A DNA stretch of 64,000 nucleotides from Anaerolineae bacterium. Its GTDB lineage: Bacteria > Chloroflexota > Anaerolineae > Aggregatilineales > Phototrophicaceae. The stretch covers positions 1 to 64,000 of the forward strand of contig JAJDXR010000051.1 in assembly GCA_022823165.1 (NCBI GenBank), written 5' to 3'. The position numbers and the translations under genes are program-made. Every line of letters starts with the position of its first letter. The first letter of the stretch is position 1. Below, piece after piece: positions 4,127 through 58,560 of the stretch. The notes beneath the pieces are model-generated. The model saw only the letters and a list, made by a program, of their open reading frames with translations. It had not been told where the DNA came from and did no database searches.

Positions 4127-4256
4127 GAGTATTGTGTTGCGCGCAATCGCGGGGCGGCGCAAATTTCTATTGTCATGAGTAGAGATTTTGCTTGTAATCT
4201 TGACCAAGGTGAGAAGCTGTGATATCGTCCCCGCGCGTCTTATTTAGCTATGCATA

Positions 4257-4296
4257 AAGGTGGTCTAATGTGTACTATGAATCCCCCCCCCCCCGC
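4257..4296 (+). promoter_or_regulatory. Shine-Dalgarno, start codons and C12 tract: probable phase-variable translation start
   Basis: AAGGTGG at 4257-4263 is the best ribosome site in front of the giant surface gene. It is placed for ATG 4268 (or the overlapping GTG at 4270). A run of 12 C (4283-4294) separates those starts from the in-frame ATG 4297. With 12 C the ATG-4268 frame ends at a TGA after 13 codons. With 10 or 13 C it would run straight into the surface protein. The GTG at 4270 is in frame now. A change of one C would therefore switch which start is productive. Slippage is inferred, not shown. Confidence 0.6.
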
Positions 4297-7200
4297 ATGC
4301 GTCAACTGAATTCTAAGCTATTATGCTTCGCAAGCCTGCTCATACTTGCGCTAGTTGTAGCGGCCGCGCCGGCCATGGCGGCGGGCAGCATCACCGTAGA
4401 CGCCTCGTGCAGCCTGGCGAGCGCCGTCAAAGCAGCCAATACCGATAGCGCAGTTGGCGGCTGCGCGGCGGGCAGCGGCACAGATACCATCACCATCACC
4501 AAGGCCGGCACCAATAACGGCGTCATCACCCTCGGCAGCCAGTTAAACATCCGCGACAACACTGTCATTGAAGGCGGCGGCTTCGTCATCAACGGCAGCT
4601 CATCCATCTTTGATGTCAGAGATGTCTCGTTGACAGTGAAGAACCTGACGTTAAACGGCGGCTATGCCCGGGATGGTGGCGCGATTACCAGCTACGAGGG
4701 CGATATCACCGTCATCGCCAGCAGCTTCAGCAATAATCGGGCGGTCAAGTATGGTGGCGCGATTTACACCAACGAGGGTGATATCACCGTCATCGCCAGC
4801 AGCTTCAGCAACAATGAAGCCGGGGGACGCGGCGGCTCGATTTACACCTATGAGGGTGACATCACCGTCAGCCACAGCAGCTTCAGCAATAACACCGCCA
4901 AGGCGACTTTCTCGTCTTTCGAATATGGCGCATCTGGCTATGGCGGCGCGATCTACACCTATGAGGGCACTGTCAACATCAGCAACAGCAGCTTCTCCGG
5001 CAATCGCGCGGCGCGGAAAGGCAGCGCGATTTACACCTATGACGGACCTATCACGGTGACGCATGTCACCATGAAGGGCGAGCTGTATACCTATGACGGC
5101 GTCTTGAACCTGCGCAACAGCATCATCGGCTCCGTGTTGAAGGGAGATTCCAGCGCCACGGTGAACCAGGCGGGCAGCTTGATCGGTGGCGCCCCCAAGC
5201 TGGGCGCGCTGACCGGCTCGCCAGCCTACCTCCCGCTTTTGCCCGGCAGCCCCGCCATCGACGCCTCCGACAACACATATTGCCTGAGCGTCGACCAGAG
5301 CTATGTGGCGCGCCCTCAAGGCAATGGCTGTGATATCGGCGCGTTTGAATCGTCGCTGACAGCGAGCCAAACCACAGCGACCGCCATCGCCCCCAGACCC
5401 ACCGCCGTGCCCAGCGCCACGCCAACAGCAAGCCCGACGCTCAACCCGTTGCCGGTCAGCTTGAATGGCACACGCTGCGATGAACTGGCTGAGGCCATCA
5501 AGGCCGCGAATACAGACGCCGTCAGTGGCAACTGCCCGGCCGGCAATGGCGCGGATACCATCACTTTCCATGGCAATATCGGCTTGCGCCAGAAACTGCC
5601 AACGATCAGCTCCGACATTACATTCGAAGGCGGCGGCTACACCCTCGACCGCGCCGTCGGCGGAGCGTCACGGCGATTTCGCCATTTCTCCATCGACAGC
5701 GGCGCCACCGTCGTCATCAACAATCTGACCTTGACAGGCGGCGAAGAAGTCAGCGGCGGCGGATCAATTAACAATAGTGGTAGCCTGACTATCAACAACA
5801 GCACCTTCCTCCAGAACGAAGTAAGCAATGGGGGCGGCGCGATTGACAACGATGGCGACCTGACCATCAACAGCAGCAATTTCATCAAGAATGAAACGAG
5901 TTGGAATGGCGGCGCGATTAATCATAACCCCAACTTCGCCTACCAATCTGACAATGGCTGGCTGTTCCGGACGAATCGACCGCTTGCCGCTGGTTCGCTG
6001 ACGATAAAGAACAGCAGCTTCCGCAATAACGAAACCACCAGCTTTGGCTCCGCGATACTGTATGTGGGCGACCTCGCCAAGCTAAGCATCAGCGGCAGCA
6101 GCTTTACAGGCAACACCGCCACTTGGGAAACAGGTTCTGTATACTGCGTCGCCACCAGCGGGGGCAGCCAGACAAACAGCGCCTGCGACATCTTGAGAAA
6201 GCAATACATTGCTCCCGACACAGCCACGCCAACCGCCAGCGTCGCGACGGAAACCAAACCCGCGGCCACGCAATTGCCTTCGTCAGTCAGTTTGAACGGG
6301 ACGCGCTGCGCCCTGGCGGACGCCATCAAGGCCGCGAATACAGACGCCGTCAGCGGCAACTGTCCGGCCGGCAATGGCGCGGACACCATCACTTTCAACG
6401 TCAATGCGCCCCTGAGCGCTAAACTACCGTCCATCACCTCCGACATCACATTCGAGGGCGGCGGGTATGAGCTCACCCTCGAAAAGACGCAGGGTTTGGC
6501 GCGTTTCCGCCTGTTGGAAATCACCAGCGGCACGGTTGTCATCAACAATCTGACGCTGTCGAGGGGCTTTGTTACTCGCTATGGTGGGGCGATTTACAAC
6601 AAGAACAAGGGTACGCTGACCATCAGCAACAGTACGCTTCGCGACAATGAAAGCAGCTACTATGGTGGGGCGATTTACAACGCGGGTACGCTGACCATCA
6701 GCAGCAGCAGCACGCTTCGCGACAATGAAAGCAGCTTCTATGGCGGGGCGATTTACAACAAGGGTACGCTGACCATCAGCAACAGCACGCTTCGCAACAA
6801 TGAAACCGCCCACTATGGCGGGGCGATCCACAACGTGGGTTCGCTGAGCATCAGCGGCGCAACCTTCAGCGAAAACGAAGCCAGCTTCAAAGGCGGGGCG
6901 ATTTACCATGGCTCTACAAATATCCAAGATCCAGAAGGTTATGGCGAATGGATCGGTGTCGACGGGGCCGGCTCACTGACGATAAAGAACAGCAGTTTCA
7001 CAGATAACAGCGTCTCTTTCACCGGCGGCGCGATACTGTATGCGGGCGACCTGGGGAAGCTGAGCATCAGTGGCAGCAGCTTCACCGGCAACACCGCCTC
7101 GTTTGACAACGGTCCGGTATGGTGCATCGCCGACAGCGCCGGCAGCCTGACAAACAGCGTCTGTGACGACATACAATATGAAAAAGGCGCCGCGACCTCG

Positions 7201-8688
7201 ACGCCAACCGCGACCAGCCCAGCGACACCGACCAGTACGCCAACAAGCACACCGACACCCACTAACACGCCCGATACAGGCAGCCAGCCAAAGCCACAAA
7301 AAGACGCGCAGCCGCAACTGCCCACCGATGGCGCGCTGGGCATGATCTTCCCCAAAGTCTCCAAAGACCACATCACGGTCCAGTGGAGCGACATGGGCAA
7401 GGTGCTGCTCTATTTCGTCGAGATCAGCGGCCTCGGCAGCTACTACGACTTTGTCACGCCTGGCGCTGGCACGACTTCGCATGATTTCGGCGGCTTGCAA
7501 GCGGATACGAGCTATACCATCAAAATCACCGTCTATCAGCAGGATGGGGTCAATCTCGTCGCCACGGACAGCGCCAAAACCGCGCCGGATGGTCCGTCGA
7601 CAGCGACGCCGATACCGACCGATACACCGATTCCCACAGACACGCCTGTTCCGACTGATACGCCCATCCCAACTGACACGCCTGTGCCGAGTTTGATACA
7701 GACTTTAATCGGCTATCGGGATGAGCAAGCATCAAACACTGACCATTACAAGCGCTGGGCGCGGGCATTGGCGGCGCTGGGGCATGGCAGCCACGCCAAT
7801 CCGCTGACGTTGGCGGAGGCGCAGCAGATGGCAGACACCTACAGCCGCAATCGCTGGCAGCCGGTGGTCGATGCGCTGACGCAAATGCAGCAGCAGTCCC
7901 AACAGCAGCAAGTGGTGGCTACGGCAACGCCCACGCCCACGGCTACTGCGACTGCCACAGCGACGCCAACGCCGACTGCGACGCCAACGAGCACGCCGAT
8001 ACCGCCGCCGACAAATACGCCGCAGCCACTGCCGACGAACACGCCTGCGCCCAGCGGACCCTACGCCGCATTGATTTCGACATTGATTGGCTATGCGCAG
8101 GAGGATCACGGCGTTGAGCATCAAACGCGCTGGAAGCGGGCTTTGGCTGCGCTGGGCTGGGACAGTGGCGAATCGCCGATGACGTTGCAAGAGGCGAAAA
8201 ACATGCGGGATACCTACAGCAGCAATCGCTGGCAGCCGGTCGTCGATGCGCTGACGCAGCTGCAGCCACCGACCAATACGCCCTTGCCAACGAATACACC
8301 TGTGCCGCCACCGACCAACACGCCTGTGCCGACAAACACGCCCGTACCGCCACCGACCAACACGCCTGTGCCGACAAACACACCCGTACCGCCACCGACC
8401 AACACGCCTGTGCTGACAAACACGCCCGTGCCGCCACCAACGAACACGCCCGTACAGCAGCAAGCCTATACTGTGCCGCAGAGCCTCATCAACACCTTGA
8501 TTGGCTACACAAAAGAGGATTATGGCGATGCGCATGTCAAGCGCTGGAAGCGGGCATTGGCGGCGCTGGGCTATGACAGCGGCGAAAGCGCAATGACACT
8601 GCAAGAGGCGAAAGATATGCGCGATGATTTCACCGCCAGCCGCTGGCAGCCGGTGGTGGACGCGCTGGAGAAACTGGCGGGGAATTAG
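4297..8688 (+). CDS. giant secreted beta-helix protein with FnIII domain, Thr-Pro linkers and three C-terminal modules
   Basis: A 1463-aa exported protein. Residues 1-29 form a signal peptide (hydrophobic core, 'AMA' cleavage). Three right-handed beta-helix blocks follow (about 30-355, 387-635 and 665-958), built from repeats such as 'SSFSNN..A..GGAIYT' like Chlamydia polymorphic membrane protein repeats. Each block starts with a 'C.LA.A(I/V)KAANTD' unit. The first ends with 'GSPAID...CDIGAFES', a choice-of-anchor-Q-like segment. A fibronectin-III-like domain spans about 1012-1097. Thr-Pro-rich linkers join the parts. Three copies of a ~67-aa module ('RALAALG', 'RWQPVVDAL') lie at about 1132-1198, 1258-1323 and 1396-1463. 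There is no LPXTG or transmembrane tail, so the C-terminal modules may hold it to the surface. Adhesion or binding of glycans is a guess. ATG 4297 is used here; upstream starts are discussed with the C12 tract. Confidence 0.85.
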   Translation: MRQLNSKLLCFASLLILALVVAAAPAMAAGSITVDASCSLASAVKAANTDSAVGGCAAGSGTDTITITKAGTNNGVITLGSQLNIRDNTVIEGGGFVINGSSSIFDVRDVSLTVKNLTLNGGYARDGGAITSYEGDITVIASSFSNNRAVKYGGAIYTNEGDITVIASSFSNNEAGGRGGSIYTYEGDITVSHSSFSNNTAKATFSSFEYGASGYGGAIYTYEGTVNISNSSFSGNRAARKGSAIYTYDGPITVTHVTMKGELYTYDGVLNLRNSIIGSVLKGDSSATVNQAGSLIGGAPKLGALTGSPAYLPLLPGSPAIDASDNTYCLSVDQSYVARPQGNGCDIGAFESSLTASQTTATAIAPRPTAVPSATPTASPTLNPLPVSLNGTRCDELAEAIKAANTDAVSGNCPAGNGADTITFHGNIGLRQKLPTISSDITFEGGGYTLDRAVGGASRRFRHFSIDSGATVVINNLTLTGGEEVSGGGSINNSGSLTINNSTFLQNEVSNGGGAIDNDGDLTINSSNFIKNETSWNGGAINHNPNFAYQSDNGWLFRTNRPLAAGSLTIKNSSFRNNETTSFGSAILYVGDLAKLSISGSSFTGNTATWETGSVYCVATSGGSQTNSACDILRKQYIAPDTATPTASVATETKPAATQLPSSVSLNGTRCALADAIKAANTDAVSGNCPAGNGADTITFNVNAPLSAKLPSITSDITFEGGGYELTLEKTQGLARFRLLEITSGTVVINNLTLSRGFVTRYGGAIYNKNKGTLTISNSTLRDNESSYYGGAIYNAGTLTISSSSTLRDNESSFYGGAIYNKGTLTISNSTLRNNETAHYGGAIHNVGSLSISGATFSENEASFKGGAIYHGSTNIQDPEGYGEWIGVDGAGSLTIKNSSFTDNSVSFTGGAILYAGDLGKLSISGSSFTGNTASFDNGPVWCIADSAGSLTNSVCDDIQYEKGAATSTPTATSPATPTSTPTSTPTPTNTPDTGSQPKPQKDAQPQLPTDGALGMIFPKVSKDHITVQWSDMGKVLLYFVEISGLGSYYDFVTPGAGTTSHDFGGLQADTSYTIKITVYQQDGVNLVATDSAKTAPDGPSTATPIPTDTPIPTDTPVPTDTPIPTDTPVPSLIQTLIGYRDEQASNTDHYKRWARALAALGHGSHANPLTLAEAQQMADTYSRNRWQPVVDALTQMQQQSQQQQVVATATPTPTATATATATPTPTATPTSTPIPPPTNTPQPLPTNTPAPSGPYAALISTLIGYAQEDHGVEHQTRWKRALAALGWDSGESPMTLQEAKNMRDTYSSNRWQPVVDALTQLQPPTNTPLPTNTPVPPPTNTPVPTNTPVPPPTNTPVPTNTPVPPPTNTPVLTNTPVPPPTNTPVQQQAYTVPQSLINTLIGYTKEDYGDAHVKRWKRALAALGYDSGESAMTLQEAKDMRDDFTASRWQPVVDALEKLAGN
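8266..8455 (+). repeat. 42-bp coding minisatellite (14-residue Thr-Pro unit)
   Basis: About four and a half copies of a 42-bp unit encode 'PTNTPVPTNTPVPP', with small changes (L or V at two places). It lies between the second and third C-terminal modules of the surface protein. Copy number could change by recombination or slippage without breaking the frame, giving linkers of different length. Confidence 0.85.
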
Positions 8689-40047: not shown

Positions 40048-40680
40048 ATGCAAGGTCAGACTGAAGAATTTGGCGCAGACACAGCTACTGCACTGAAAGA
40101 AAATTGGCGCCCCCCCCCCGCCGCGCTGATCCTGCTCATTATCCCGCTCTTCGGCGTGTTCGCCGCGCTGATGATGCTCGTCCTGGACAAGCGCCAGCCG
40201 CAATCTACCGCGTCCGCATTCACGCCGGCGCCGCCGCGCAGCGTGGTAAACTTCGCCGCGCCCGACTTCGAATTGCCGCTGCTTGATGGCGTCACCCTGG
40301 TATCGCCCTCGGATTACGCCGGGCGCCCGCTTTTCCTCAACTTCTGGGCGACCTGGTGCGCGCCTTGCGTACGCGAATTGCCGGCGCTGGAGGAGTTCGT
40401 CGCGCGGCAAGCCGAGTACCCTGATGGACCGGCCCTGCTCACCATCAATCTGGGCGAGCCCGCCGCCGTGATCAGCAGCTTTCTCGACGGCATCGGCATC
40501 TCGAATCTGCCGGTCGCCATGGACATCAACGAGGTCGTCAAGCGCGACTACGGCGTACAAAACCTGCCGACCACCTACATCATTGACGGCCAGGGCGAGA
40601 TTCGTTATATGAAGCTGGGAGAGATGACCAGCGAGGATATGGCGGCTTACCTCGACGCCTTGACGCAGCCTGATCCATAA
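40048..40680 (+). CDS. membrane-anchored TlpA/DsbE-like thiol-disulfide oxidoreductase
   Basis: A 210-aa protein. After a short cytosolic start, residues about 26-48 form a membrane anchor, followed by a thioredoxin-like domain with 'FLNFWATWCAPCVRELP' (redox CxxC near residue 107) and the cis-Pro in 'NLPTTYIID'. It reduces or moves disulfides outside the membrane, as in cytochrome c maturation. The first 24 residues include three prolines encoded by a C10 tract (40110-40119), which is in frame at its present length. ATG 40048 is used. Confidence 0.88.
   Translation: MQGQTEEFGADTATALKENWRPPPAALILLIIPLFGVFAALMMLVLDKRQPQSTASAFTPAPPRSVVNFAAPDFELPLLDGVTLVSPSDYAGRPLFLNFWATWCAPCVRELPALEEFVARQAEYPDGPALLTINLGEPAAVISSFLDGIGISNLPVAMDINEVVKRDYGVQNLPTTYIIDGQGEIRYMKLGEMTSEDMAAYLDALTQPDP
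40110..40119 (+). repeat. C10 homopolymer inside the TlpA-like gene
   Basis: Ten C in a row encode part of Arg and three Pro, 21 codons after the start and just before the membrane segment. The present length keeps the frame open. A gain or loss of one C would stop the protein before its thioredoxin domain. It is one of three runs of 10 or more C/G seen in this window. Confidence 0.9.
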
Positions 40681-57020: not shown

Positions 57021-57068
57021 TTTAACCACAGAGGGCACAGAGAGCACAGAGGAAATAATGGGGGGGGG
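57021..57068. repeat. three CACAGAGNN nonamers followed by a G9 run
   Basis: CACAGAGGG, CACAGAGAG and CACAGAGG repeat with period 9 at 57027-57052. A run of nine G follows at 57060-57068. The stretch lies in the short gap between the methyltransferase-nuclease gene and the start of the ManD/RspA-like gene, so it falls in that gene's leader. Confidence 0.85.
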
Positions 57069-57079
57069 AGAGCCGTGTC

Positions 57080-58560
57080 TTACAATCCCAGCATGGCGCC
57101 GCGGCGCTTGTAGCCGTAGAGCGGCAAGTCCAGCTGTTCGTCGCCGAGCAAGCTCTCGACGCTGAAGCCCTGAATCACCGGGTAGCTGCCCCAGGCGTCG
57201 CTGAAGGTCGCCTTGACACGCTGATTCTCGACCGTGCCCAGCTGGTCCGAGAAGCAGACCATCACGCCGGCAGTCGCTTCGTAGCGGCGCACGGTTTCAT
57301 GCAGCGCCTTCACCGCGTCGGGGCTGACATTGCCGCCCTTGACCTGCACGATAGCGTATTCCGGTTTGACCTTTTTGCCCTCGCGCACGGGGAAGAACTT
57401 GAGTACGCCGTCGACGCCGCCGTCCGCGCCGCGCTCGCCCGGTTCGCGGAACATGCCCTCCGCGCCGATGTAACCGCAGACCCACTTCTCGAACTCGAAG
57501 GGGTCGCTGCGCGCCAGGCTGCGGGCTTCACCGACTGAATCGGGCGTGCCGCGCAGGTCGATGTCATCGCCGTTGAGGTACTTGAAATTGTGCAGGATGC
57601 GGTCGCGGATGAGGCCGGTCGAGAACTTGGAAATGTCGATGCCGATCCACTGGCGGCTCAGCGATTCGGCGGCGTGCACGGTGGTGCCGCAGCCGCAGAA
57701 GGGGTCGAGTACTGTGTCGCCTTCGTTGGACGAGGCTTTGATGATGCGATTCATCAGCGCGAGCGGTTTCTGCGTGGGGTAGCCGAGACGTTCTTTACTT
57801 GTAGAGCCAAGATGATTGATCAGCCAGACATCATTAAGCTTTACGCCTCTATTTTCGTCCTCAAGGACTACCTTGTATCTTCGGCCTTTAACAGTGTGCC
57901 AGCGCCACCTTTTCCCGGTCTCCTTGTCAACGTACCCGTAATCTTTCTTTATCCAGTCTCCATAAGGTTCATATTGCAAATTAAACATAAACTTATCAGA
58001 ACGTGTGTATCTTAGAAGTATGTCGTGCATCCGCTGAAAGTGCTTTGTACCTGCTGTCCAACGTCGATAGTGCCATACAATCTCATTTCGGAAATTCTTG
58101 CGCCCATAGAGCGCGTCCATCAGCAGCTTGAGGTAGTGGCTCGCCGTCGGGTCGCAGTGCAGGTAAATTGAGCCGGTCGGTTTGAGCGTACGCCGCATGG
58201 CGCGCAGGCGCAGCGCCATATTCAACAGGTAGGACGCTAAGCTCGACCCCTTTCTCGCCCCCCCCCCCCGCTCATTTGTTCTACAGACTGCGCGAACTTG
58301 ATGATGGTGGCCAGCGGACGCGTGCGCGGGTCGCGCTGCAGGTCGTCCAGCGTCTCGGCGTCCTGGTCGCTCCATTTCCAGATGTCGACGAAGGCTTCGA
58401 CCGGCTTGTGGGTCTTGTCTTTGCCTTTGAAAGGCAGGTTGTATTTCGAGTTGGAATTAAAGGGCGGGTCGAGGTAGATGAGGTCGATCGAAGCGTCGGC
58501 GATAGCGTCGCTGTCGTTCAGCACTTCCAGACAGTCGGCGGCAAACAGTGTTCGGTTCAT
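57080..58560 (-). CDS. DNA methyltransferase-nuclease fusion, interrupted by a G12 tract (out of frame as read)
   Basis: Two overlapping frames make up one protein. The first part (from ATG 58560) has motif IV 'LIYLDPPFNSNSKYN' near residue 27 and runs into a G12 run (58258-58269); there it leaves frame and stops at 58237. The next frame continues with 'SLASYLLNMALRLRAM', 'LKPTGSIYLHCDPTASHYLK', and the AdoMet motif 'TVLDPFCGCGTTVHAAE'. The C-terminal ~160 residues are an Mrr-like PD-(D/E)xK nuclease ('GADGGVDGVLKF', 'YAIVQVKGGN'). With 10 or 13 G the frame would be whole (492 or 493 aa). Thus it looks like a phase-variable, single-chain restriction-modification enzyme in the off state, unless the tract length is a sequencing error. 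Base use resembles the host, apart from an AT-rich stretch at about 57780-58080. Confidence 0.8.
58258..58269. repeat. 12-bp C/G homopolymer in the methyltransferase-nuclease gene
   Basis: Twelve C on the plus strand (G on the coding strand) lie at codon ~98 of the fused gene, in a loop between motif IV and the next conserved helix. A loop of several glycines there would be tolerated, which fits a contingency tract. The coding frames on its two sides differ by one base at the present length. Confidence 0.92.

Follow-up and report, generated by a model that had tools for sequence, protein, structure and literature searches.

A C12 tract in the start region of a PMP-repeat surface protein gene as a probable slippage switch in a genus of Anaerolineae

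Anatomy of the C12 locus and its relatives

Does a run of twelve C's, lying between a Shine-Dalgarno-like motif and the signal peptide of a surface protein, decide by its length whether this protein is made? We asked this of a locus in the window, by which we mean the whole stretch of 64,000 nucleotides analysed here. Our answer is that the C12 tract is probably (at about 0.8) the hypermutable element of a contingency, that is phase-variable, locus, which would act through slipped-strand mispairing and at the level of translation.

A sequence-only reading had described around this tract the motif AAGGTGG, the ATG at 4268, the GTG at 4270 and the ATG at 4297, and direct reading of the letters found this anatomy exact at base level (Table 1). 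It had also held that the frame of ATG 4268 ends after 13 codons at C12 and joins the surface protein at C10 or C13. Indeed, this frame reads MCTMNPPPPACVN and then stops, and as 29 nt separate 4268 from 4297, the surface ORF is joined at those two lengths. Likewise GTG 4270, which overlaps ATG 4268, is in the surface-protein frame at the present length, and the ORF counted from it has 1472 aa. Two more start candidates, the ATGs at 4250 and 4277, were absent from that reading; both are in phase with ATG 4268, and all three are out of frame at C12. The 16S-tail pattern used as an anti-SD check gave no match.

The surface protein carries PMP repeats of the Pfam family PF02415 (E 5e-19). It does not belong to the classical Pmp autotransporters, because no C-terminal autotransporter beta-barrel was matched in it by Pfam.

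Table 1. Features of the C12 locus and other C/G tracts in the window
Feature	Position	Strand	Remarks
Promoter-like site TTGACC-17-TATCGT	4200-4228	+	Upstream of the tract, which lies outside it; the region can also be made out in G007 and in L102, a paralogue there
Leader ATG (ATGCAT)	4250-4252	+	Conserved in the sister; at C12 not in frame
Shine-Dalgarno-like AAGGTGG	4257-4263	+	Direct reading; AGGTGG kept in the sister species
Leader ATG	4268-4270	+	4 nt past the SD; at C12 its frame has 13 codons before a stop
GTG	4270-4272	+	Surface-protein frame at C12; no conservation in the sister species
Surface protein ORF	4270-8688	+	Signal peptide, Chlamydia-type PMP repeats, weak fn3 match
Third leader ATG	4277-4279	+	Same phase as 4268; GTG in the sister species
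C12 tract	4283-4294	+	C15 in G007, C18 in G015
Post-tract ATG at the signal peptide	4297-4299	+	Without SD; in G000 and G007, not in the G015 homologue
C10 close to the 5' end of the gene (40048-40680) for a TlpA/AhpC-like thioredoxin	40110-40119	+	Before a membrane segment, in frame
G9 tract	57060-57068		Between the stop of the methyltransferase and the gene that comes next on the minus strand
G12 (C12 on +) in an N6/N4 DNA methyltransferase gene (about 58560 to 57080)	58258-58269	-	Gene split into two frames

The same gene was found in a sister species (G007, the MAG Anaerolineae bacterium isolate jk18x9bins.15), where the surface protein is 93% identical and a C15 stands at the same place. 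The leader codons are ATG CAT AAA GGT GGT CTA ATG TGT ACT ATG AAT in the window and ATG CAT ACA GGT GGT CGG TTG TTT CCT GTG AAA T in the sister. When they are aligned by codon, ATG 4250 is kept, while 4268 and 4277 correspond to TTG and GTG, and the leader frame enters the surface protein in the sister but not in the window. A third species (G015) has a PMP homologue with C18 and no ATG directly past the tract, which lies 29 bases from a contig end. Only these two close homologues carry the tract.

A fixed length in relatives had been named beforehand as the result that would speak against switching, and what we found is three lengths at one site, C12, C15 and C18; the tract of a D12 methyltransferase (see below) likewise has different lengths at one site in related genomes. 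All the sequences are draft consensus assemblies, in which the length of a tract may be wrong by one or two bases, and the ON/OFF states of single genomes are not to be trusted. By sequence arithmetic and by this comparison, a change of tract length alters the frame read from the start that we infer to be the functional one.

Tract excess and methyltransferase genes

The C12 tract is not a product of chance. The C/G runs of the window fall steeply in number to one run of 6, there are none of 7 or 8, and then runs of 9, 10, 12 and 12 follow, a bimodal distribution. Runs of at least 9 gave 11 overlapping matches, a number reached in none of 100 dinucleotide shuffles, whose mean was 0.2. The window's genome (G000) has 18 C/G tracts of at least 9 and 11 of at least 11, the longest being 17, whereas about 1.25 tracts of at least 11 were expected by extrapolation from shorter runs. 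The C12 therefore lies far beyond chance length within the start region of a gene.

This excess is mostly a trait of the genus. The median number of tracts of at least 11 per genome was 12 in the genus (34 genomes) versus 1 in the other genera of the order (27 genomes), with a Mann-Whitney P of 9e-8 that is uncorrected for relatedness; among the order's other genomes, G047 and G060 were exceptions. Loss of mismatch repair as the source of the long tracts was considered and rejected. A MutS1-family match was present in all 61 genomes (above the cut-off in 58), and 58 genomes, that of the window among them, had a MutL domain; thus no general repair defect would explain an instability of the tracts, which would stem from tract length alone.

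Tracts also disrupt DNA methyltransferase genes. On the minus strand of the window, an N6/N4 methyltransferase is divided by the G12 into a DPPF half and a second half in another frame, and relatives have G9 to G14 at this site, or no tract. For a D12 class adenine methyltransferase, about 25 species have a G-tract at one and the same codon; the lengths range from G9 to G15, and about 8 of the tracts are in frame. The window's genome has a further methyltransferase split at a G10, and a C14 upstream of yet another one. As in the phasevarions described before (PMC7394358, PMC4889913), where a methyltransferase gene is switched at random by a repeat, the homopolymer here would act by shifting the frame. 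Unlike the known phasevarions, these putative ones belong to the D12 and N6/N4 families and to Chloroflexota. Genes of the N6/N4 type are very numerous in the window's genome: the methyltransferase of the window has 26 matches there, and up to 54 in G015.

A module before signal peptides and how the tract may act

In order to know whether the arrangement of the C12 locus recurs, we took 123 tracts of at least 11 from ten genomes, which were nearly all of the window's genome and nine further members of the genus. The module was defined as an SD and an ATG at most 36 bases before the tract, with the hydrophobic core of a signal peptide soon after it. It was found at 11 of the 123 tracts versus 0.49% of random positions, and at 0 of 123 on the opposite strand, in the G orientation. 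The binomial P was 4e-11; at least 8 of the cases look unrelated, and with only 8 counted as independent P is still about 2e-7. Five further tracts lay just past a signal-peptide core, a weaker excess (P 0.002). The gene model used was a periodic Markov model, which replaced a codon-usage model that was too weak.

Several genes of the module encode PMP, fn3, PKD or other surface-type domains, and the members inspected include both in-frame and out-of-frame cases. In one pair of orthologues, L204 in the window's genome (C11) and L114 in G023 (C13), the frame is kept by a compensating base upstream. In 10 of the 15 members inspected there is no start codon between the tract and the hydrophobic core, therefore the start lies before the tract and the tract is coding there. 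The C12 tract itself is best read as coding.

We suggest the following mechanism, in which slippage as the cause, the start in use and the expression states are inferred. Translation would start in the leader before the tract, with the AAGGTGG motif and at ATG 4268 or one of its in-phase neighbours; the ribosome would translate the C's into a few prolines before going on into the signal peptide and the PMP-repeat surface protein. Slipped-strand mispairing would insert or delete C's, so that the leader ATGs would meet the surface protein at one length in three (ON, here C10 and C13), and at the remaining lengths the leader frames would end early (OFF). The C12 allele of the window would be OFF for all three leader ATGs, with some residual expression possible from GTG 4270 or ATG 4297.

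The sequence-only reading had gone further and had proposed that a one-base change swaps an efficient ATG start and a weak GTG start. Its core, a C-tract switch in the start region of the surface protein, is well supported by the in-frame C15 of the sister, by the recurrence of the module ahead of further signal peptides and by the genus-wide excess of C/G tracts, including those in methyltransferases. The swap is not supported, and we rejected the idea that GTG 4270 is a second start by design: it is GTT in the sister, without conservation, while start-type codons (TTG and GTG) are kept there, in the other frame, where the window has ATG 4268 and ATG 4277. A plain ON/OFF switch with leakage is therefore simpler.

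Regarding the other explanations, the one that survives best, although we regard it as improbable, is that the C12 belongs to a 5' untranslated leader, with translation starting only at ATG 4297 and the tract length mattering little. This ATG lies past the tract, hence a tract-independent start is possible at this locus; the signal peptide that it opens is ideal, the sister has this ATG too, and the predicted folding of the C-rich leader was no better than that of shuffles. Nevertheless, no SD precedes it, a well-placed SD and ATG stand ahead of the tract, the G015 homologue has no ATG at this place, and 10 of the 15 comparable loci offer no start between tract and core. The folding result also led us to reject a leader RNA hairpin controlling the ribosome site.

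We give still less credit to a neutral, drifting low-complexity insert at a tolerant end of the protein, without selected switching. A polyproline directly ahead of the signal peptide would be tolerated, and the other PMP homologues of the genus with a readable start carry no tract. However, neutral drift predicts no preference for sites between an SD-ATG and a signal peptide, and it predicts neither the tract kept at one codon of the D12 methyltransferase nor the many genes that are frameshifted yet conserved.

It is very improbable that the tract tunes transcription, by promoter spacing or a leader effect, instead of the reading frame. In the genus 86 of 139 tracts are intergenic, and therefore effects on promoters may exist elsewhere, but the promoter-like site of this locus lies wholly upstream of the C12, and a role as promoter spacer was rejected. 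An assembly or sequencing artefact deserves almost no weight: contig breaks are frequent at tracts, and L186, L188 and L191 of G015 (C48-C51 beside N stretches) are probably products of scaffolding or gap filling, but species assembled independently of one another share the tract at one site, and such tracts occur in most of the genus but in few other genomes of the order.

Likeness to known systems and further tracts

Slippage as the agent of the C12 locus would make it a case of slipped-strand phase variation of the kind known from Chlamydia pmp and Haemophilus genes, here in a genus of Chloroflexota. In Chlamydia, pmpG undergoes poly-G phase variation (PMC6740158), and both systems have PMP-repeat surface proteins, a C/G homopolymer of varying length that in some cases is near the gene start, and frameshifted and intact copies side by side. 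Unlike pmpG, our locus is in a MAG of Anaerolineae (Chloroflexota), with the C's on the coding strand and the tract directly before the signal peptide, and unlike the Chlamydia Pmp proteins its product has no autotransporter domain in Pfam. With Haemophilus lic1 (licA), where the repeat number determines which start is in frame (PMC2992063), it shares several starts immediately 5' of the variable repeat. However, the repeat of lic1 is the tetranucleotide CAAT and not a homopolymer, and the three leader ATGs of the C12 locus are in one frame, with only the unconserved GTG in another. A survey of 5' homopolymer tracts (PMC2831843) covers Listeria inlA, a surface protein gene whose tract also lies towards the 5' end and in which a frameshift gives a truncated peptide. 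The survey found an excess of poly(A)/poly(T), whereas here the excess is of C/G. In the limited collection of literature that we searched, we found no report of phase variation in Chloroflexi, Chloroflexota or Anaerolineae.

A putative tract switch of this type recurs across the genomes of this little-studied genus, in other exported proteins and in DNA-marking enzymes. We consider it rather probable, with less confidence than for the locus itself, that these form a genus-wide contingency system, in which a reusable module would switch many exported surface proteins and conserved G-tracts would switch at least two methyltransferase families, so that coat and epigenome would vary together at random. 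Slippage-driven phase variation has been described mostly in host-adapted pathogens. Genus-wide tracts in PMP-type and methyltransferase genes of uncultured Anaerolineae suggest random switching outside the known pathogens and, if the joint system is real, random variation of surface and epigenome together in bacteria not known as pathogens. Such switching may be of use against phage, or in host association.

Finally, among the other tracts of the genus we noticed two intergenic families:

i) C11 to C22 followed directly by a 21-bp palindrome, GTATACATACTGTATCTATAC (GTATANATACNGTATNTATAC), often with GGGGGTA before the tract. We saw it at L134, L140, L147, L163, L169, L171, L182 and many more loci, with dozens of copies in G032, G013, G009 and G025; adjoining the tracts of the window's genome and of the sister it was not seen.

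ii) TTTA or TTA, then a C-tract (C11 to C17 depending on the place), then GAATATCTGTTCTAATTCTC or close variants. This family was found at L008 and L014 in the window's genome, L093 in the sister and L113 in G023.

Two more cases are within genes. The orthologues L207 (contig C35 of the window's genome) and L153 (contig C28 of G013) have G14 and G13 just past a short hydrophobic leader; in neither gene does the tract appear to be in frame, and the L207 protein has Excalibur and GmrSD_C domains. At L210 (about 2090-2098 on contig C63 of the window's genome), a G9 lies in frame in an apparent family 2 glycosyltransferase gene.
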